Assembly (NCBI RefSeq): GCF_019801465.1
Contig: NZ_JAHVJA010000010.1
Coordinates: forward strand, 1-64,000
Length of the DNA stretch: 64,000 nucleotides
Direction: 5' to 3'
From: Leisingera daeponensis
Lineage (GTDB): Bacteria; Pseudomonadota; Alphaproteobacteria; Rhodobacterales; Rhodobacteraceae
Numbering within the stretch: position 1 is the first letter of the stretch; each line of letters starts with the position of its first letter. The notes below the pieces were generated by a model, which saw nothing but the letters and a program-made list of their open reading frames with translations, was not told where the DNA came from and did no database searches. A program made the translations under genes and the position numbers. Below, piece after piece: positions 6,923-16,906 of this stretch.

Positions 6923-7029
6923 TCTTTTTCCTGATAGGAATAATCGTTGACAGGAAGCCCCCTCCCTTGGCTAACTGGACCGGACCAAAGGAACCAGATC
7001 AAGAATTTTGGTCCGCACCAAAAGGGAGA
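6923..7029 (+). promoter_or_regulatory. dmmDABC promoter with two operators and ribosome site
   Basis: From left to right: a TTCCTGATAGGAA inverted repeat (6928-6940), a -35 TTGACA (6947-6952), an 18-base spacer and a CTAACT -10 (6971-6976). Site A, TGGACCGGACCA, is at 6976-6987 over the start of transcription. Site B, TTTTGGTCCGCACCAAAA, is at 7006-7023 with 7-bp arms, immediately before the AGGGAG ribosome site. Sites A and B are matched in order and spacing in front of tmm (14391-14440), so one repressor probably controls both. GntR/FadR-type operators resemble this (E. coli FadR: TGGTCNGACCA). Confidence 0.7.
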
Positions 7030-7037
7030 TTTATAAA

Positions 7038-8174
7038 ATGACTGCATCCTGGCGCTTCTCAACCCTTGCTGACCGCCACCGGGCGATGGGTTCCGACCTG
7101 GAAGACTGGAGCGGCATGGGCACCGCCTGGACCTATGACAAGGACCAGACCGAAGAATACATGGCAATCCGCACCAAAGCGGGCTTCATGGATGTGTCCG
7201 GCCTCAAGAAAGTGCACCTGGTCGGCCCGCATGCCAGCCATGTGATCGACCGGGCCACCACCCGCAATCCGGAAAAAATCAAACCCGGCCGCAGCACCTA
7301 TGCCTGCATGCTGAACGACGACGGCAAGTTCATCGACGACTGCGTCATCTACCGCATGGGCCCGAACAGCTGGATGGTCGTGCACGGCTCCGGCCAGGGC
7401 CACGAGACCCTGACCATGGCGGCCCAAGGCCGCGACGTCGACATCCGCTTTGACGACAACCTGCACGACATCTCCCTGCAAGGCCCCGCTGCCGTCGACT
7501 TCCTCGAGGAACAGGGCGTTCCCGGCATCCGTGACGTGGTTTACTTCAGCCACATTCACACCACCCTGTGGGACAAGCCGGTAACCATCTCGCGAACCGG
7601 CTACACCGGCGAGCGCGGCTACGAGATCTTCTGCCGCGGCCAGGACGCGCCGCACATCTGGGACAACCTGGTCGAAAAAGGTGCTCCCAAGGGCATCATC
7701 CCGACCCGTTTCACCACGCTCGACCTGCTGCGGGCGGAAAGCTACCTGCTGTTCTTCCCCTATGACAACTCGGAGATGTACCCCTTCGAGAACGAGAAAT
7801 GCGGTGATACACTGTGGGAGCTTGGCCTCGACTTCACCGTGTCCCCGGGCAAGACCGGCTTCCGCGGCGCCGAGGAGCACTACCGCCTGAAGGGCAAGGA
7901 ACGCTTCAAGATCTACGGCGTCAAGCTGGAAGGCTCAGAGCCGGCCGAAGAGGGCGCGCCGCTGCTGAAGGACGGCAAGCAGGTGGGTGTCGTTACCATC
8001 GGCATGTACTCGCCCCTGAACGAGCACAACGTGGGCATCGCCCGCATGCCGGTCGACTGCGCTGAACCCGGCGTCCAGCTGACCGTCAAGAACTCCACTG
8101 GCGAGATCCCCTGCGTTGCAGCGGAGATGCCGTTCCACGATCCGGAGAAGAAGCGCCGGACCGCAAAAGGCTGA
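7038..8174 (+). CDS. dmmD: DmmD, GcvT-family THF-binding protein of the dimethylamine monooxygenase operon
   Basis: The 378-residue protein belongs to the aminomethyltransferase (GcvT/DmdA-like) family. It has the N-terminal folate-binding lobe ([33 protein letters not shown]) and the C-terminal barrel ([21 protein letters not shown]). The start MTASWRF at 7038 is preceded by AGGGAG; an upstream in-frame codon at 7008 lies inside the operator. In dmmDABC clusters the DmmD partner is thought to take formaldehyde-level carbon from DMA demethylation onto THF. That role is inferred from family and context. The next gene, dmmA, follows after 71 bp. Confidence 0.85.
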
Positions 8175-8245
8175 GCCGAATCCCGGGCGTCCCCAATCCG
8201 GGGGCGCCCGCTTCCGTTCACCCGACTGCAGGAAAAGCGATCCAC

Positions 8246-8857
8246 ATGTCTAAGACCGAATTCCCCCCTTCCATCAAAAGCCGCCCCGTCTACGGCGAGC
8301 TTGAACCGCGGGCCGGCAGCGGCCACCTGATGATTGCCGATGCCGAAGGCGCCGAAGCTATCCTCGGGCTGGCAAAATCCGTTGACCCCGGGTTCTGGGC
8401 CAAGACCCACATCATCTACATCCCCAAGAAAACCGGCACCAAGTACAGCAGCCAGCTGGAGCAGCTGGGCGCCGGCCAGTATTACTGCGGCCCCTCCTAC
8501 GAGGCCGCGCAAAGCCGCATCCGCCGCGCCTTGCAGAACTGCCACATGGGCACCCAGGTCTATCTGACCGGCACCGAGAGCCTGATGGGCCAGGCGATGC
8601 ATGAGGCAGTCACCGCAGGCATTCCGCACACCGCGATCCAAACCGAACACCGCGGCTCGACCGCACGGCGCATGCAGTGCGTGCACTGCAAGGGCATCAC
8701 CGAGGACGTCACCACCGATCCGTTCGAGTGCAGCCACTGCGGCCTGAGCCTGTTCGTGCGCGACCACTACTCGCGCCGCATCGCGGCCTTTCAGGGCGTG
8801 CGGGTGGATGCCGAAGATCCGGGCAACATCCCCGAGAAAGTGGAGCTGTTCAAATGA
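8246..8857 (+). CDS. dmmA: Dimethylamine monooxygenase subunit DmmA
   Basis: The 203-residue protein has an N-terminal alpha/beta part (residues about 1-135) and a C-terminal knuckle with two CxxC pairs: CVHC in MQCVHCKG and CSHC in FECSHCGL (about residues 148-171). Such a rubredoxin-like or zinc-ribbon unit could carry a metal. It is followed by the conserved SLFVRDHYSRR. It belongs to the DmmA family found only beside DmmB and DmmC. It overlaps dmmB by ATGA, which indicates coupled translation. Whether the cysteines bind Zn or Fe cannot be told from sequence. Confidence 0.87.
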   Translation: MSKTEFPPSIKSRPVYGELEPRAGSGHLMIADAEGAEAILGLAKSVDPGFWAKTHIIYIPKKTGTKYSSQLEQLGAGQYYCGPSYEAAQSRIRRALQNCHMGTQVYLTGTESLMGQAMHEAVTAGIPHTAIQTEHRGSTARRMQCVHCKGITEDVTTDPFECSHCGLSLFVRDHYSRRIAAFQGVRVDAEDPGNIPEKVELFK

Positions 8858-9819
8858 GTGCTGGCACCGCAAAACTGAATGTCACCGTGGCCGAGGTCAA
8901 ACCGATCAACGACCTGGTCACCCGTTTCAAATTCGTCCGCACCGGCGGCGGCGACCTGCCCACTTTCTCGGGCGGGGCGCACACCGTGGTTGAGATGCAG
9001 GACGGCGACATCACCCGGCTCAACGCCTATTCGCTGATGTCCAATCCGGCCGACCGCGGCGCCTACACCATTTCGGTGCGCCGCGACGACCAGGGCCGCG
9101 GCGGCTCCAAGTTCATGCACACCAGGGTGATAGAGGGCATGGAGATGGTGATCTCCAACCCGGTGAACTTGTTCTCGCTGGATCTGCGCGCAAAGAAGCA
9201 TCTGATGCTGGCCGGCGGTATCGGCATCACCCCCTTCATGGCGCAGATGCACCAGCTGTCAATGATGGACGGGCATTTCGAGCTTCACTACTCGGTCCGC
9301 ACGGCCTCGCTGGGCACCTACGCCAAGGAGCTGTCTGAGCGTTATCCGGGCAAGGTCCACATCTACCACGACGACCAGAACGAGGCGATCGACCTCAAGA
9401 CCCTGCTCGCCAACCAGCCGCTCGGCACCCATGTCTACGTTTGCGGCCCAAAGGGCATGATCGAATGGGTGCATGGCACCGCAGAGGCTATGGGATGGCC
9501 GCGCGAGGCGGTGCATTCCGAGGAATTCCTGGCGCCTGCCTCCGGCAAGCCTTTCGAGGTCAAATGCGCGGTTTCGAACAAAATCGTCCAGGTCGGCGAG
9601 CACCAGTCATTGCTGGAAGCGCTGGAGGCGGCCGGCATCGACGCCCCCTACCTCTGCCGCGGCGGCGCCTGCGGCCAGTGCGAGACCAATGTCATCGGCT
9701 ACGACGGCAAGTTCCTGCATTACGACCACTGGCTGACCGACGAGCAAAAGGCCGGCGGCAAGCATATCATGCCCTGCGTGTCGCGCTTTGAGGGCAAGAC
9801 CCTGGTTCTGGACCGCTGA
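8854..9819 (+). CDS. dmmB: Dimethylamine monooxygenase reductase subunit DmmB (PDR/VanB type)
   Basis: The 321-residue flavin reductase belongs to the phthalate dioxygenase reductase family. Domains in order: an FMN-binding barrel (RLNAYSLMSNP), an NAD(P) Rossmann part (LMLAGGIGITPFMAQMH and YVCGPKGMIEWV), and a C-terminal plant-type 2Fe-2S ferredoxin with CRGGACGQCETN plus a later Cys in HIMPCVSRFEG. It passes NAD(P)H electrons to the haem subunit DmmC. The start is the ATG at 8854, overlapping the dmmA stop; the longer frame from 8677 lies inside dmmA. Confidence 0.9.
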   Translation: MSAGTAKLNVTVAEVKPINDLVTRFKFVRTGGGDLPTFSGGAHTVVEMQDGDITRLNAYSLMSNPADRGAYTISVRRDDQGRGGSKFMHTRVIEGMEMVISNPVNLFSLDLRAKKHLMLAGGIGITPFMAQMHQLSMMDGHFELHYSVRTASLGTYAKELSERYPGKVHIYHDDQNEAIDLKTLLANQPLGTHVYVCGPKGMIEWVHGTAEAMGWPREAVHSEEFLAPASGKPFEVKCAVSNKIVQVGEHQSLLEALEAAGIDAPYLCRGGACGQCETNVIGYDGKFLHYDHWLTDEQKAGGKHIMPCVSRFEGKTLVLDR

Positions 9820-9830
9820 GGGAGAGAGAA

Positions 9831-10877
9831 ATGACCATTCAATTCAACGACGAAACCTTCCGCGGGGACTTCACTTTCCGCAACTCGGAATGGGCGATCA
9901 AGCGCTTCCCCTTCCCGTTCCACGAAGACAGCTACATGTATTCGGTCAACATGGAGCCGCACACCTCCTACCGGCCCGGCTCCGTGTTCGAGCGCACCTT
10001 CGATGTCGACGAGCACTATGTCTCCGAAATGAAGGACCGCGCCCAGGTACTGGCGGATGACCCGCTGCGCTGCCAGTCGCTGCCGCACATGACGCTGGCA
10101 GGCTGGGATCTGGTCGAACTGATCATGGAAGCCAAGGCGCGCGAATACCCCGACCTGTTCGAGCTGCACAAGAACGGCAACCGCTGGCGCTGGGTGAACA
10201 AGCCGCTGGGCATCGACGACACTTTCACCTTCCTCGACGAAAGCACTCTGCCCTACGGCCCGATGGAATACATCACCCGCCAGACCCAGGGCGACTTCGC
10301 GCTGCTCGACCAGCGCGACGACAACCTGTGGATGGACGCAGGCATGGTCACCACCCAGGCCGACTGGAGCCTGGATTTCGACATCGGCATGAACTTCTTC
10401 GAATGGCATGCCCCGGTGCCGAAGGCCCATGAGATGGGCATTTTCGTGCGCGCCCTCAAGTTCCTTCTGAACATCCAGCAGGGCCAGCCCGCGCGGCGCC
10501 TGAACTGGACCATGACAGTGAACCCGCTGCTCGACACCTCGCCGGAGAACTACCACAAGTGGGGCGAGATGAAGCAGGACCTCACCTTGGAGAACATGGG
10601 CAGCAAGCAGCACCTGCGGGTCGAATTGCAGACCTTCTTCCGTCTGCCGCGCTCCAACGCGCTGGTGTTCCCGATCCGCTGCTACCTGATCAGCTTCGGC
10701 GATCTGGTGACAGTGCCGAAATGGGGCCGCCGCCTGCACCGGGTGATCCGCGACCTGCCGGAGGAGCTCGCAACCTACAAGGGCTTCATCGACAACCGAC
10801 CGATGATGGTGGAATGGCTGTCGCAGTATGATGACGGCAGCCCAACCTCGGACGGCATCTGGCCCGACGACGACTGA
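9831..10877 (+). CDS. dmmC: Dimethylamine monooxygenase haem subunit DmmC (DUF3445 family)
   Basis: The 348-residue protein belongs to the DUF3445 / haem-dependent oxidative N-demethylase alpha-subunit family. It should be the oxygenase that demethylates dimethylamine to methylamine and formaldehyde. Recognisable stretches are PHMTLAGWDLVELIM, TQGDFALLDQRDD, HAPVPKAHEMGIF, RRLNWTMTVNPLLD and LRVELQTFFRLPRSNALVFPIRCYL. A ribosome site GAGAGAGA lies before the ATG and 11 bp separate it from dmmB. It is the last gene of the operon, followed by a terminator. The haem ligand cannot be assigned with certainty from sequence. Confidence 0.88.
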   Translation: MTIQFNDETFRGDFTFRNSEWAIKRFPFPFHEDSYMYSVNMEPHTSYRPGSVFERTFDVDEHYVSEMKDRAQVLADDPLRCQSLPHMTLAGWDLVELIMEAKAREYPDLFELHKNGNRWRWVNKPLGIDDTFTFLDESTLPYGPMEYITRQTQGDFALLDQRDDNLWMDAGMVTTQADWSLDFDIGMNFFEWHAPVPKAHEMGIFVRALKFLLNIQQGQPARRLNWTMTVNPLLDTSPENYHKWGEMKQDLTLENMGSKQHLRVELQTFFRLPRSNALVFPIRCYLISFGDLVTVPKWGRRLHRVIRDLPEELATYKGFIDNRPMMVEWLSQYDDGSPTSDGIWPDDD

Positions 10878-10933
10878 TCCCGAGCGGACTAGCGGGCCGT
10901 CCCTACCCCCTGTCACTTAGGCCCGCTTCACTG

Positions 10934-10969
10934 ACTGCCGTTGCCTCTGGCTTCGGCAGTTTCTTTTTG
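10934..10969 (+). terminator. Terminator of dmmDABC
   Basis: Arms ACTGCCG (10934-10940) and CGGCAGT (10954-10960) enclose a 13-nt loop and are followed by TTCTTTTTG. This is an intrinsic terminator 57 bp after the dmmC stop. Confidence 0.7.
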
Positions 10970-11087
10970 CCCGCAATCCGCAAGGCGGCCCTGGAAAGCA
11001 AAAGCGCCGCGCATCGCGCAGCGCCTGGCCCATCCGTGCATCAGCACCCCGGCTGCCCCGTAATAGGCGGGACGCGCCAGCCGCGCC

Positions 11088-11744
11088 TCAGCTCGATTGC
11101 GGGTAGGAAATGATCGACAGATACCGCGCCGGCAGCTTGACCAGCCCTTCCGGACCGTGCGGCGCATCCGCATCAAAGAACAGCGTGTCCCCCGGCTTCA
11201 GCGAAAACACCTTGTCGCCGTGCCGGTAGTCCACCTCGCCCTCCAGCATATAGAGCATCTCCACACCGTCATGCTGGAAGGTCGGGAAGACATCCGATTC
11301 CTCGGTCAGGGTGATCATATAGGGCTCCACCATGACGCCTGAGGCATTGGCGCCAAGATGCCCCAGAAGCTGATACTGATGGCCTGCCCGGGTACCTGCC
11401 CGTTCGGTTTCCGCCCCTTCGCCGGATTTGGTGTGGACCGCCTCTCGGCTTTCCTCGAAACGCCGGAAGAAGGACGTGATCGGCACGCTCAGCGCATTGG
11501 CCAGAAGCTGCAGCGTTGTCAGCGACGGAGAGGTGTTGCCGTTTTCGATCTTCGACAGCATCCCGATCGACAGCCCGGTCAGGTTGGCCAGATCCGCCAC
11601 GGTGATCCCCTGCTGGCGCCGGAACGACCGCACTTCGCGCCCGATCGCAACTTCCAGAACTTTTTCCGCACCATCGCGGACCCGGTGCGGGTCTTGAGAA
11701 AGGTTATTTGCCACTGCGTCACTGTCATCTTTGAGTTTAGCCAC
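11088..11744 (-). CDS. XRE-family regulator with C-terminal cupin
   Basis: The 218-residue protein has an N-terminal Cro/CI helix-turn-helix (VRSFRRQQGITVADLANLTG then LSIGMLSKIENG, about residues 35-75) and a C-terminal cupin (DGVEMLYMLEGEVDYRHG, LKPGDTLFFDADAPHGPEGL, about 145-205). Such regulators usually sense a small ligand in the cupin; PuuR is the model. The chosen start is GTG at 11742-11744 with AAGGAAG 8 bases upstream; a TTG at 11777 is also in frame and would add 11 residues. It is convergent with dmmDABC and divergent from gntR. It is a candidate regulator for the AGGAAAATAA motif sites. Confidence 0.85.
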   Translation of the reverse strand: MAKLKDDSDAVANNLSQDPHRVRDGAEKVLEVAIGREVRSFRRQQGITVADLANLTGLSIGMLSKIENGNTSPSLTTLQLLANALSVPITSFFRRFEESREAVHTKSGEGAETERAGTRAGHQYQLLGHLGANASGVMVEPYMITLTEESDVFPTFQHDGVEMLYMLEGEVDYRHGDKVFSLKPGDTLFFDADAPHGPEGLVKLPARYLSIISYPQSS

Positions 11745-12256
11745 TGTGTTATCTTCCTTATCGATGGCCTCTGACAAGCGCGCAGCAGCCGATATGTGAA
11801 AACTTTCCCCGACGCAAGGAACGGTGCGAATATTATTTTACTGTCATTACCTGTTTTTCCCAACCCTTTACCGCCAGAGGAAAGAAAATAGTTGCCACGC
11901 CGCGGCAACCGGGGCGCCTGAGCACTGCGTCCCGCGCCAGCCGGAGCCGCTGGCCTGCTACTGCTGGACCAAAAAAGCACCAATTCCAGACCCCACCGAA
12001 CGCTCGGGCCAGCACGTAAAATTAAAATGACGGAAAAACAGATAGCTACGTCTGAATTTCAGAGCCGGCGGAAACACCCAAGCGCAGAACCAATTTGCGC
12101 CCCGTCCTTGCTGAGCGGCGCTGAAACCGCTAATCTGTGTGCCAGTCACCGCTGTGTGAGCCCGTTGCAGCACGGCCGCGATAACCGGCAATTGCAACAC
12201 AGGCACGGCGATCAGGAGCAGGGTTTCCCGCTCATAAGGCCCGGAAAAGACAAAAC
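11745..12256. other. Divergent intergenic region between the XRE-cupin and gntR genes
   Basis: No convincing gene is present in about 510 bases. It holds an ACCAA-rich stretch, TGGACCAAAAAAGCACCAA (11965-11983), reminiscent of the tmm and dmmD operators. It also holds a perfect 13-bp palindrome TCTGAATTTCAGA (12051-12063), repeated at the lysR promoter. The 77-codon frame from 12027 that abuts gntR has neither a protein-like composition nor a ribosome site and is judged spurious. Confidence 0.5.
12051..12063. promoter_or_regulatory. T-N11-A palindrome shared with the lysR promoter
   Basis: TCTGAATTTCAGA is identical to 18605-18617. It has the T-N11-A form and dyad symmetry of LysR-type binding sites and lies 193 bp before gntR. 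It may let the LysR protein at 18626 act on gntR or on the XRE-cupin gene. Confidence 0.5.
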
Positions 12257-12982
12257 ATGAGCTCAGCGGAAGAAACCACTTCGCAAATTCTGACCACCCA
12301 TTCCGTCGGCGCGACGGTGCAGGTGGTGATCGACACGCTGTTCGCCCGGATCAAATCCGGCAGTTACCCCGTGGACACCCGGCTGCCCTCCGAACGCACC
12401 CTGGCGTCCGAGCTGGGCGTGGCCCGCAACACCGTGCGCGAGGCGCTGGATGTGCTGGCCAGCCAGAACGTCATCCACCGCCGGGCCGGGTCTGGCAGCT
12501 TTGTGAAATTCCGGTCCGACCCCAAGCCGGAAGCCTCCTACAGCTCGCTGGCCAACGAAGTCTCACCACTCGACCACCTTGTGGTCCGCGGCATTCTGGA
12601 ACCGGAACTGGTGCGCCTTGCGGTGATCAACATGACCCCGCGCCAGATCGAGGAGCTGGACCAGATCCTGTCCCGGGTCGAGGCCGTGCGCACCGATCCC
12701 GGCGATTTCATCGAGGCCGAGGAGGACCTCTACCGCAAAATCGCCGAAGGCACCGGCAACCCGCTTCTGCATTCCTGCTACGAGCTGACGATCGAGGCCT
12801 GCCGCCTGTCCTACCGCACGGCCCTGCGCCGCCGCCACCTGACACCGCAGCGGATTCAGGACTATCAGAAACGCTACAACACGCTGTTCAACGCCATTGC
12901 CTCGCGCGATGTGGAATCCGCGGTGGAATTCATCAAGCTGCACTTGATCGACGAGCAGAAACTGCTTCTGCAGGAGGTTTGA
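12257..12982 (+). CDS. GntR-family (FadR/FCD) transcriptional regulator
   Basis: The 241-residue protein has an N-terminal winged helix (IKSGSYPVDTRLPSERTLAS then ELGVARNTVREALDVLASQN, residues about 30-80) and an all-helical FCD effector domain (residues about 100-230) with VRGILEPELVRLAV, EEDLYRKIAEGTGNPLLHS and HLIDEQK. FCD proteins commonly bind a carboxylate or amine effector and repress. It lies between dmmDABC and tmm, both of which carry TTGGTCC-type dyads like FadR operators, so it is the best candidate for their repressor; this is inferred. It is convergent with the binding-protein gene, 6 bp away. Confidence 0.87.
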   Translation: MSSAEETTSQILTTHSVGATVQVVIDTLFARIKSGSYPVDTRLPSERTLASELGVARNTVREALDVLASQNVIHRRAGSGSFVKFRSDPKPEASYSSLANEVSPLDHLVVRGILEPELVRLAVINMTPRQIEELDQILSRVEAVRTDPGDFIEAEEDLYRKIAEGTGNPLLHSCYELTIEACRLSYRTALRRRHLTPQRIQDYQKRYNTLFNAIASRDVESAVEFIKLHLIDEQKLLLQEV

Positions 12983-12988
12983 CCGCGC

Positions 12989-14290
12989 CTATCCGTCAAC
13001 CGCGCGGGAGCTGACCTCACTGCCCGGCGCATCGCTTTCCAGCCGCTGGTGCCACAGCTGCCCCAGCGTCTCCATTTCCGATTTCAGCAGGCCGGAGTGC
13101 TCCGCCAGCCAGGCGGGGATTGACTTGAATTCGGCGATCCGCGCCTTGCCCTCCCGGATCGTCACCACCGGCCAATCTCCAACCAAGGCATTGGAAATGC
13201 CGAAAATATCCTCGCCCCACCATTCCGCGTGGCCGAAGGCGTGGGTGACATGGCCAAGCTGCTTCATCGCCGCCAGCACCGATGGCGGCGCAACCGATCC
13301 GGCCTTCTCCACCGCGCTGTGCCAGATATCCAGGATCGCAACATACTCCCAGCTCACAGCCGACCAGCTGCCCGGAAATCGGCGGCTGTACTCCTCAAAG
13401 AACTTATGCGGTCGGTTGAAGAAAAACGCCTTCTCACTCAGCATCGGATCGTCAAAGTCCGGAAACTGGAACACCACCCCTTCCATGAAGTCCACTGACG
13501 TCCGCTCCACCAGCCGGTCGTAGCCATCCATGGTGCAGCTGATGATCTGCCCCCTGAACCCTTTGGCATAGGCATATTCCGTCATCGCGTGCACCATCGG
13601 CGCGTAGGAGGAGCACCAGCACAAGATATCCGCACCGCTCTCCAGCATCGGATCCACCACCGGTGCCGGATCGCTGGAACCGGGATCATACTGCACTTCC
13701 TGCAGAATTTGCTTGTCCGCAGCCTTGAACGCCGCGCGGTAAACCGCTTGCGCCGGCAGTCCGAGCAGATCCGCCTGGCTGCACAGGGCAACCGTCTTCA
13801 GCTCCGGCCTGTTCTCCGCCAGCCAAGCCACACCGGTCACATTCTGGATCGGATGCGCCTCGCTGGGAGCAATCAGATAAGGCGTGTCCGGCGACAAGTC
13901 AGTCGGCAGCAGGGTCGAGGTCAGCACCTTGTTGCGCATCAGGAAATCCCGCACCGGCGCAAAGGTATCACCCCCCAGCATCAGCATGAGCTTGACGTTG
14001 TGCTTTTGAACCAGCTCAACCGCCCCCTCCAGCGCGCGCTCCGGATCATAGCCGCAATCATAGGAGTGGATTCGGATCGGGTAGCGGCGGCCGCCGATCA
14101 GCACTCCCCCGGCCTTGTTCAGCCCGTCCTCCCAGATCCGGCAGCCGTTCAGACCAGGCAAGCCCCAGCTCTCCACCCGGCCGGAAAGCGGCCCCAAAAA
14201 ACCGATATTCACTGATTCTGCCATCCCCACGGACAAGCGGGGCAGCGCTGCACGGGCAGTCAGCTGATGCACAAAACTGGTCGTCTTCAT
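12989..14290 (-). CDS. Type-1 periplasmic-binding-fold protein (AmiC/UrtA-like), no signal peptide
   Basis: The 433-residue protein (411 if it starts at 14224) matches the Leu/Ile/Val- or amide-binding fold: [31 protein letters not shown] then RYPIRI, the [20 protein letters not shown] strand-helix, and [15 protein letters not shown]. The ATG at 14288-14290 has AGGA 8 bases upstream; the ATG at 14222-14224 matches the family's usual start but has no proper ribosome site. Neither start gives a hydrophobic export signal, and no ABC permease or ATPase is nearby. It may therefore be a cytoplasmic ligand sensor like AmiC rather than a transporter part. It is divergent from tmm across a shared control region. 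Confidence 0.75.
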
Positions 14291-14365
14291 GCCCGGAATC
14301 CTACCAAGAAAACAACGTGCTTCCAGTCCAATTGCGCCAAAAATCATTCCGCATGTGAAAAAATG

Positions 14366-14450
14366 TTGACTTTTGGGGGCGAATTTGGACCTAATTGGAC
14401 CAGACCAAATGAACCAAAACCAAATATTGGTCCGAACCAACGGGAGAACC
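14366..14450 (+). promoter_or_regulatory. tmm promoter and paired operators
   Basis: A -35 TTGACT (14366-14371) and a CTAATT near -10 (14391-14396) are followed by site A TTGGACCAGACCAAA (14395-14409), an ACCAA-rich stretch (14412-14424), site B TTGGTCCGAACCAA (14427-14440) and the GGGAG ribosome site (14442-14446). Aligned with the dmmD leader, most of the roughly 55 bases from CTAA to the ribosome site agree, although the genes they precede are unrelated. The placement over the start site and leader suits a repressor. Confidence 0.72.
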
Positions 14451-14452
14451 AC

Positions 14453-15799
14453 ATGACCAAGAAACGCATTGCCATCATCGGCGCCGGCCCCTCTGGCCTG
14501 GCCCAGCTTCGCGCATTTCAATCCGCGGCCAATAAAGGTGAAGAGATCCCGGAAATCGTCTGCTTCGAAAAGCAGGACAACTGGGGCGGCCTGTGGAACT
14601 ACACCTGGCGCACCGGCCTGGATGAAAACGGCGAGCCGGTGCATTGCTCGATGTACCGCTACCTGTGGTCCAACGGCCCCAAGGAAGGCCTGGAATTCGC
14701 CGATTATTCCTTCGAAGAGCATTTCGGCAAGCAGATCGCCTCCTACCCGCCGCGCGCCGTGCTGTTCGACTATATCGAGGGCCGGGTGAAGAAGGCGGAC
14801 GTGCGCAAGTGGATCCGCTTCAACTCCCCGATCCGCTGGGTAGAGTACAACGAGGACAAGGGCAACTTCACCGTCACCGTGCACGACCACGCCAAGGACA
14901 GCACCTATAAGGAAGATTTTGACCACGTGATCTGCGCCTCGGGCCATTTCTCGACCCCGAACGTGCCGTTCTACCCCGGCTTCGACACCTTTAACGGCCG
15001 CGTGCTGCACGCCCATGACTTCCGCGATGCCCGCGAGTTTGCCGGCAAGGACATCCTCCTCCTCGGCGCCTCCTACTCCGCCGAAGACATCGGCTCCCAG
15101 TGCTGGAAATACGGCGCCAAGACAATCACCACCTCCTACCGGACCGCGCCGATGGGCTTCAAATGGCCGGACAACTGGGAGGAAAAACCGGCGCTGGAGT
15201 CGGTTGACGGCAACACCGCAACCTTCGTCGACGGCACCAGCAAGAAGGTCGACGCGATCATTCTCTGCACCGGCTACAAGCATTTCTTCAGCTTCCTGCC
15301 GGACGACCTGCGCCTGAAGACCGCCAACCGCCTGGCCACCGCCGATCTCTACAAGGGCGTGGTCTACGCCCATAACCCCAAGATGTTCTACCTCGGCATG
15401 CAGGACCAGTGGTTCACCTTCAACATGTTCGACGCTCAGGCCTGGTGGGTCCGTGACGCGATCATGGGCAAGATCGAGATCCCGGCGGACAAGGAAACCC
15501 TTCTGGCCGACGTTAAGGAACGCGAAGCGCGCGAAGAAGCGTCGGACGACGTCAAATACGCGATCAAATACCAGGGCGATTATGTGCTGGAGCTGATCGA
15601 GGAAACCGACTACCCGACCTTCGACGTGGCCGGCGCCTGCCAGGCCTTCTATGAATGGAAGGGCCACAAGGCCCAGGACATCATGGCCTTCCGCAACAAC
15701 TCCTACAAATCGGTCATCACCGGCACCATGGCGCCCGTGCACCACACCCCGTGGAAGGACGCCCTGGACGACTCGCTGGAAGTATATCTGCAGAACTAA
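14453..15799 (+). CDS. tmm: Trimethylamine monooxygenase
   Basis: The 448-residue flavin monooxygenase oxidises trimethylamine to its N-oxide with FAD, NADPH and oxygen. Visible motifs: FAD-binding GAGPSG (residues 10-15), the FMO fingerprint [11 protein letters not shown] (about 186-196), NADPH-binding GASYSAED (205-212) with Tyr208 in the place of the Tyr207 reported as important in Roseovarius Tmm, and the C-terminal [15 protein letters not shown] region that lines the substrate pocket. The start MTKKRIAI at 14453 has a GGGAG site; a 62-codon upstream extension runs through the operators and is rejected. It is transcribed alone, with a hairpin after it. Other FMO activities (e.g. on DMS) are possible. 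Confidence 0.93.
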
Positions 15800-15901: not shown

Positions 15902-16906
15902 ATGCAGCGCGATAAAACCATGACACTCGGCTTCCTGATTTTCCCCGGCTTTCCAATGGCCTGCCTGACCTCGGCCATCGAACCCCTGCGGGCGGCAAAT
16001 GAAATTGCCGGCTCTGAAACCTTCCGGTGGAAACTGGTGTCCGAAACCGGCAACAGCGTGAATGCCTCGGCCAATGTGGCGTTCCAGCCCGACTGCCCCC
16101 TGGACGCGGCAGAGGACATCGACACCCTGTTTCTCCTGTCCAGCCCTCAAGGCAAATTCGACGACCCCAAGGCCTCCAACGGCAAGCTGCGCCACCTGGC
16201 CCGGCACGGCACCACCATGGGCGCAGTCTCCGGCGGCGTGTTCCCGTTGGCCCGCTCCGGCCTGCTGGACGGCCACAGCTGCTCGGTTCACTGGTGCTAC
16301 AAGGCTGCATTCACTGCGGAATTCCCGTCCCTCACCACCGTTGACGACGTCATTGTGCTGGACCGCCGCCGCTTCACCGCCAGCGGCGCCGCAGCGATGT
16401 TCGACCTGTCGCTGAAGCTGATCGAACGCGCCATGGGCGACGCGGTGATGACTGAGGTCGCCTGCTGGTTCCAGCATCCGATGGTCCGCGCCGAGGGCGT
16501 GCGCCAGAAAATCCCCGCCTTCAAGACCGACAGCACCGCCGACAGCCTGCCGCCGCCGGTCGCCAAGGCGGTTGAGCTGTTTGCCGACAACCTGGAGCAC
16601 CCGGTCTCGATCCGTGACGCGGCCAGCGAAATCGGCGTCTCGCCGCGCCAGCTGGAGCGCAGCTTCAAGGCCGCCACCGGCCAAAGCCCTGCCATCTACT
16701 ACCGCACCCTGCGGATGAACGCGGCACGGCAGCTGGTGATGTATTCGCGCGATTCGATCACCTCGATCGCCAATGCGGTGGGTTATGCCACCTCCTCCAC
16801 CCTGTCGCAGCATTACCGCGAAAGCTTCGGCGTCACCCCGCAGGAGGAACGCCGCAAGGTGAACCTGTTCAGGGTCCAGGATAACCGCCCGATCCCCTCG
16901 GCCTGA
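15902..16906 (+). CDS. GlxA-family (DJ-1/PfpI plus AraC) transcriptional regulator
   Basis: The 334-residue protein has an N-terminal class I glutamine-amidotransferase-like domain (FLIFPGFPMACLTSAIEPLR at the start, residues about 7-190; the nucleophile elbow reads AVSGGVFPLA, without cysteine) and a C-terminal AraC pair of helix-turn-helices (SIRDAASEIGVSPRQLERSF and TSIANAVGYATSSTLSQHY). Regulators of this type include GbdR and CdhR, which respond to glycine betaine and carnitine. A TATAAT at 15888-15893 sits only 8 bases before the ATG, so the mRNA may be nearly leaderless; a second ATG six codons on is possible. Position after tmm suggests quaternary-amine control, but no target is proved. 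Confidence 0.85.
   Translation: MQRDKTMTLGFLIFPGFPMACLTSAIEPLRAANEIAGSETFRWKLVSETGNSVNASANVAFQPDCPLDAAEDIDTLFLLSSPQGKFDDPKASNGKLRHLARHGTTMGAVSGGVFPLARSGLLDGHSCSVHWCYKAAFTAEFPSLTTVDDVIVLDRRRFTASGAAAMFDLSLKLIERAMGDAVMTEVACWFQHPMVRAEGVRQKIPAFKTDSTADSLPPPVAKAVELFADNLEHPVSIRDAASEIGVSPRQLERSFKAATGQSPAIYYRTLRMNAARQLVMYSRDSITSIANAVGYATSSTLSQHYRESFGVTPQEERRKVNLFRVQDNRPIPSA

Follow-up and report, generated by a model that had tools for sequence, protein, structure and literature searches.

The stretch analyzed here, 64,000 nucleotides of Leisingera daeponensis (contig NZ_JAHVJA010000010.1; "the window"), carries the dmm operon, the tmm gene and, between them, the gene of a regulator, tmoR, that probably acts on the leaders of both. 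The operon, on the forward strand, begins with dmmD (7038-8174), which codes for a GcvT-like protein whose family matches are below cut-offs and which occurs in Leisingera as two diverged alleles. It continues with dmmA (8246-8857; NF041259 above cut-off), a gene for a reductase-like subunit (8854-9819; reductase and 2Fe-2S family matches, below curated cut-offs) and a last gene (9831-10877) assigned by position only, with no NCBIfam match. Downstream on the same strand, tmm (14453-15799) encodes the trimethylamine (TMA) monooxygenase, with an NF058570 score of 834.8 bits against a cut-off of 675. The GntR/FCD regulator that we propose to repress both promoters is encoded at 12257-12982 (forward strand; PF00392 and PF07729 above cut-offs), and a periplasmic-binding-protein gene on the reverse strand, divergent from tmm, separates tmoR from tmm (12989-14290; PF13458).

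Layout of the two leaders

Read directly, the dmmD leader consists, in this order, of a -35 element, CTAACT, a first dyad (site A), an ACCA-rich link, a second dyad (site B), GGGAGA and the ATG, and the tmm leader follows the same order from the -35 element through the ribosome site. All of these elements are on the forward strand. The predicted core promoter of dmmD (6947-6976) is made up of TTGACA (6947-6952), 18 bp and CTAACT (6971-6976); that of tmm (14366-14396), for which Leisingera leaders were compared by eye, comprises TTGACT (14366-14371), 19 bp and CTAATT (14391-14396). Site A of dmmD, CTGGACCGGACCAA (6975-6988), overlaps the -10 element and the expected start site, and a pattern covering core promoter and site A, CTAACTGGACC[AG]GACCAA, is present in all 20 Leisingera dmmD leaders. 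Its counterpart before tmm, TTGGACCAGACCAA (14395-14408), reads TTGGA[CT]CAGACCAA in 19 of 19 Leisingera. Site B is TTGGTCCGAACCAA before tmm (14427-14440; TTGGTC[CT][AG]NACCAA in 19/19 Leisingera) and TTGGTCCGCACCAA before dmmD (7008-7021), where with its flanks it becomes TTTTGGTCCGCACCAAAA (7006-7023), with the 7-bp arms that an earlier note on this DNA had described. An extra half-site follows 9 bp past the ACCAA of site A in both leaders, ACCAG in the dmmD link (6993-6997) and a direct ACCAA before tmm (14413-14417). The ribosome sites, recognized from the sequence, are GGGAGA at 7024-7029 (ATG at 7038) and at 14442-14447 (ATG at 14453). Sites A and B are 33 bp apart at dmmD and 32 bp apart at tmm, so that aligning the leaders requires small gaps.

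Smith-Waterman alignment of the two leaders gave a score of 60; 1000 dinucleotide-shuffled pairs averaged 15.8 and did not exceed 31. When the dmm leader was scanned against tiles of the window, the best tile outside both leaders scored 32 and lay inside dmmD (7105). The matched double operator proposed in the earlier note is borne out by this score and by the shared order of elements, as is its remark that the two leaders precede genes for unrelated proteins, a flavin monooxygenase above its family cut-off and a GcvT-like protein with matches below cut-offs. The 14-letter site B pattern TTGGTCCGNACCAA has two exact matches in the 4,890,691-base genome, at the two site B positions. With at most one mismatch, TTGGTN4ACCAA is found in the window at 7008 and 14427 (both exact) and at 14395, with no other dyad there to suggest further targets. 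Elsewhere in the genome the site B pattern has two single-mismatch matches. One falls in an open reading frame (ORF) that we take to resemble MsrB; the other, roughly 335 bp upstream of the next plausible ORF, falls within an opposite-strand ORF of 107 amino acids. Both were taken as chance matches rather than operators.

TmoR and the dyad before tmm

The GntR protein TmoR (SPO1553) of Ruegeria pomeroyi DSS-3 binds the tmm promoter and is a direct repressor of tmm, whose expression rose about 4.4-fold under TMA upon deletion of tmoR; dimethylamine (DMA) and, to a lesser degree, trimethylamine N-oxide (TMAO) are named as its effectors (PMC13390433). Homologues lie beside tmm in 12 of 13 TmoR strains, usually with one gene between (PMC13390433). 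The protein had earlier been called a "putative regulator of tmm" (PMC4744692). Because the order of tmoR, binding-protein gene and tmm in the window is the one reported for TmoR, we take its GntR protein to be TmoR, with which its GntR and FCD domains agree. The study cited for TmoR is reportedly that of Lidbury et al. 2016. The earlier note had picked the neighbouring FCD-type GntR protein as the candidate for a common repressor, a choice with which the Pfam domains, the position one gene from tmm and the published repression of tmm agree. It had also stated that no description of the operator was known. The main text of PMC13390433 has no match for binding site, motif, footprint, palindrome or operator, and neither a TmoR operator sequence nor TmoR control of dmm was found in the literature searched (preprints and most subscription papers lay outside its scope). 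The statement stands for the operator sequence and the dmm target, which look undescribed within this literature, and falls for the repressor itself, whose action at tmm is already published.

We surveyed one genome per genus of the family, 149 including our own; 34 of them carry tmm, and 11 of these TmoR (matches with E up to 1e-40). In 100-bp tmm leaders we looked for TTGGT-N4-ACCAA with at most one mismatch. Of the 10 other TmoR-bearing genera, 7 have the dyad before tmm, against none of the 19 TmoR-lacking genera whose leaders could be used (four more, of 23, gave no locus). It is also present in 19/19 Leisingera and in 39 of the 61 named TmoR-linked loci that have a usable tmm start (from a set of 68, L155-L222, which may duplicate genomes of the other samples). 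Shuffled tmm leaders pass the same test at 0.1 to 0.4%. Among 67 distinct non-Leisingera tmm leaders (identical 60-base ends removed), the N4 spacing is found in 42, with a maximum of 1 in shuffles, N3 in six and N2 in one; the direct ACCAA repeat at 9 bp is seen in 36. Since the dyad lies before tmm in most of the TmoR-bearing and in none of the TmoR-lacking genera, it is very probably a widespread, TmoR-linked operator that TmoR itself contacts. The recurrence of the motif before tmm in relatives, on which the earlier note had staked its proposal beforehand, was thus found in these seven genera.

Several observations weigh against this assignment. The dyad test at tmm was failed by 3 of the 10 other TmoR genera and by 22 of the 61 named loci, and 16/67 leaders have no dyad, even at two mismatches, within 60 bp of the start. 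A TTGGT-N12-ACCAA spacing is also common (21/67), mostly, in our own reading, where the regular site A is missing, and appears to mark a different arrangement of site A. Moreover, association with tmoR is also association with a clade and with neighbouring genes. The DNA-binding part of R. pomeroyi TmoR binds Ptmm weakly, with a Kd of 5.1 µM, and the contact site is not given in that report (PMC13390433). At dmmD, finally, site A is two mismatches away from the TTGGTN4ACCAA pattern.

No dyad was found in the 200 bp or less before the tmoR match in the 14 genomes examined for autoregulation. The TmoR loci (80 of 268 kept) include Roseovarius, Sedimentitalea, Defluviimonas, Mesorhizobium, Aminobacter and Ensifer; R. 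pomeroyi is not one of them. TmoR and tmm occur together in Rhizobiales too (L161, L162, L163, L170 and the Aminobacter and Ensifer loci), where the unit may have been transferred between orders; the Mesorhizobium tmm leaders (L161, L162 and L170) have the ACCAA repeat and lack site B. In the tmm leaders of Roseovarius, Aminobacter and Natronohydrobacter, a further TTGGT half-site was seen by eye about 2 bp after the -35 TTGACA. The dmm promoter of the window has no TTGGT half-site just after its -35. In three Leisingera loci (L124, L125 and L127), the interval from dmm to tmoR is longer by about 5.6 kb and includes a second stretch with 66-67% similarity to the binding-protein gene.

The dmm half in Leisingera and its sisters

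For dmm, we compared 20 Leisingera dmmD leaders with 48 from outside the genus, to which a looser site A pattern was applied (G440, which is the same place as G331, and the truncated L253 were excluded). Site A precedes dmmD in 20/20 Leisingera and a perfect site B in 15/20. Outside the genus, site A is present in three of the 48 leaders, those of the near sisters G244, G437 and G438 (TmoR 88-89% identical to that of the window); two metagenome-assembled genomes with TmoR at 83-85% (L156 and L158) have no site A at dmmD, and none of the 10 other TmoR-bearing genera has the dmm site. The expectation in the earlier note that the motif would recur before dmm as it does before tmm therefore largely failed in this comparison, and the absence of site A from the remaining 45 leaders argues that the dmm half is lineage-specific. 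This distribution fits the report that dmm is unaffected by TmoR in R. pomeroyi, where tdm and downstream genes were likewise comparable in the tmoR deletion (PMC13390433). The deletion was apparently compared under TMA, which could mask a repression of dmm.

In the simplest history suggested by these sequences, a single conversion of the dmm core promoter and leader to the TmoR type took place in the common ancestor of Leisingera and the sister genomes, and site A appeared first. In a tree of dmmABC, tmoR and tmm, G151, G154, G161 and G165 form the first Leisingera branch (support 90, its placing 62; several supports in this tree are 59-68), and all four are among the five Leisingera whose site B is not perfect. 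The fifth, G160, falls outside that branch, so that a loss or a second gain of site B is needed; G160 has no tmm, and the 184-base tmm stretch entered for it is spurious. The dmm leader may be a copied tmm leader, or its sites may have arisen in place, by convergence.

Two dmmD alleles stand behind this one leader. Compared with the window, the DmmD protein is 96-100% identical in five Leisingera genomes (window included) and 66-68% identical in fifteen, and the dmmD DNA is 91-94% identical within the same type and 68-73% in the other. For the leader (-92 to -9), identity to the window is 89-90% in the four other same-type genomes and 72-95% in the fifteen other-type genomes. Sliding identity was run for one same-type and two other-type genomes. 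Values of 63-80% are confined to dmmD, bounded by its start codon and a point near its stop, and in all three genomes dmmABC beyond is mostly 80-99% identical. A swap of the whole dmm operon was rejected, as this profile shows that dmmD alone differs. With leader and dmmABC conserved and only dmmD diverged, the leader was apparently kept while the gene behind it was replaced. The dmmD tree joins the three sisters to the fifteen (support 100) and puts the five of the window type (support 68) elsewhere, beside G089, L156 and L158. These five are not one group on the dmmABC/tmoR/tmm tree, so that dmmD would have been exchanged more than once, or the exchange partly reversed.

Upstream of the core promoter, dmm carries TTTCCTGATAGGAAT (6927-6941, forward strand), a candidate activator site. 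Defined by ourselves as TTTCC-N4to6-GGAAA with at most two mismatches, this element is present in 20/20 Leisingera and in 31 of the 48 other dmmD leaders (mean 4.8 and maximum 11 in shuffles of the latter). It lies at -93 to -102 in 25 of these 31, at about -111 in Leisingera where its position was printed, at -111 in G244 and at -113 in G438. By eye, several of the non-Leisingera dmmD genes seem to be placed behind another gene. That the element is a site for TmaR is a guess.

A fuller scenario, which we offer tentatively as one possible account, is that Leisingera and its nearest sisters put dmm under the DMA-sensing repressor of tmm by way of a tmm-like promoter and operator, with the older upstream element kept. 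The operator would have been built stepwise, site A before perfect site B, and the leader would have stayed in place while a foreign dmmD allele came in; TmoR would thereby sense the substrate of the enzyme that removes its inducer, DMA.

Proposed regulation, rival explanations and known systems

Judging from the order, spacing and distribution of their elements, both leaders probably carry the operator of TmoR, which is encoded between them and would also bind the dmm leader. A TmoR dimer on site A would cover the -10 element and the expected start point and block RNA polymerase. A second dimer would sit on site B, about three helical turns downstream and just before the ribosome site, with the extra half-site between the two; at 32-33 bp from site A it would be on nearly the same face of the helix and could strengthen binding cooperatively. 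Without methylamines, both promoters would be shut. DMA and, more weakly, TMAO would release TmoR and open tmm and dmm, and because DMA would open both promoters, oxidation of TMA and of DMA would come on together. Upstream, an activator such as TmaR may still contribute, giving dual control. Repression and effectors are published for R. pomeroyi tmm, from which we infer the control of dmm in Leisingera. The arrangement would be common at tmm in TmoR-bearing bacteria; at dmm it would be a gain of Leisingera and its nearest sisters, in which the upstream element was kept and the core promoter and leader turned TmoR-type. If so, these leaders provide, for a marine bacterial repressor of TMA oxidation, an operator sequence whose spacing departs from the FadR-subfamily rule, and predict a species difference, with TmoR controlling dmm in Leisingera and reportedly not in R. 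pomeroyi. They would also exemplify, in a phylogenetic setting, how a repressor encoded nearby took over a promoter and how a gene was exchanged behind a leader that stayed conserved.

Other regulators could in principle use the dyads. Directly after tmm, the window encodes an AraC/DJ-1-like regulator, probably TmaR (15902-16906, forward strand; HTH_18 and DJ-1_PfpI; nearest NCBIfam GbdR, below cut-off), and the DNA-binding domain of R. pomeroyi TmaR (SPO1584) binds both Ptmm (Kd 1.40 µM) and Pdmm (Kd 0.31 µM) (PMC13390433). Yet R. pomeroyi TmaR also binds Ptdm, PgmaS-mgs and Pmgd (PMC13390433), and no further dyad at one mismatch or less occurs in the window, where a gmaS candidate (a type III glutamine synthetase) is also encoded. 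The lack of site A in 45/48 non-Leisingera dmmD leaders speaks against TmaR as well, and the TTTCC-GGAAA element suits an activator better than the dyads do; we consider TmaR on the dyads unlikely. The XRE-cupin protein gene (11088-11777) sits between dmm and tmoR. Its relatives were seen in at least 27 of the 80 TmoR loci, stretches of limited length, against 77/80 for those of the binding-protein gene, and tmm leaders with the dyad occur in loci where none was seen, e.g., the limited stretch L160, making it quite improbable that this protein or another such regulator is the one that uses the dyads.

The repeats might act in the leader RNA rather than as a DNA operator, since the transcript would include site B, which could fold into a hairpin of 5 to 7 bp beside GGGAGA. 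However, the leader RNAs, with an assumed start, fold about like shuffles (z -0.48 and -0.41) and differ in fold from each other, site A overlaps the -10 element, many relatives have, by eye, a TTGGT half-site between -35 and -10, and changes in the outer arms are often one-sided (CTGGT with ACCAA in 8/51). Control at the RNA level was rejected on the folding result and is highly improbable. The dmm sites could also control nothing and be a relic of descent from a tmm-like promoter: the likeness of tmm and dmm spans the whole core promoter and the ribosome site, and site B is imperfect in 5/20 Leisingera and, by eye, in the three sisters. A relic is nevertheless rather improbable, given that site A is kept in 20/20 Leisingera, with perfect site B in 15, despite two dmmD alleles behind it. 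The points counted against TmaR, the XRE-cupin protein, RNA structure and a relic make each less likely than TmoR as the explanation of the dyads.

The proposed TmoR operator resembles those of known GntR proteins in its half-sites and differs in its spacing. The earlier note had likened the sites to those of FadR. The TTGGT and ACCAA half-sites do form the GT/AC palindrome of the FadR subfamily, and they are shared with the E. coli pdhR site, TTGGTAAGACCAA. That site has an N3 spacer, and TGGT-N4-ACCA in Leisingera is one base longer; the published subfamily consensus is GT-M-N0-1-K-AC (PMC4494728). The 2-3 nucleotides that this rule allows between GT and AC are thus exceeded, as they are by the N4 spacing of the 42 non-Leisingera tmm leaders, and the likeness to FadR does not extend to the spacing. 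TmoR shares with FadR the recognition arginines: Arg35 and Arg45, given as base-reading in the same paper (PMC4494728), align by eye with TmoR R47 and R57, both invariant in 34 sequences. PMC4494728 also describes extra half-sites 7-12 nucleotides from the centre of GntR palindromes, weaker half-sites beside a dyad as in the Leisingera leaders; in the latter, half-site and second dyad make up a fixed pattern common to two operons. NanR, of which three dimers reportedly bind GGTATA repeats (PMC8012715), is a GntR-type repressor with a multi-site operator comparable to the arrangement proposed for TmoR, although it uses repeats where the Leisingera leaders have inverted dyads and one direct half-site. 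The closest parallel is TmoR at tmm in R. pomeroyi, likewise a GntR regulator one gene from tmm, for which alone repression of the tmm promoter and DMA as the principal effector are published. In R. pomeroyi, tdm and downstream genes are reportedly unaffected by TmoR; in contrast, dmm in Leisingera carries the same operator as tmm.

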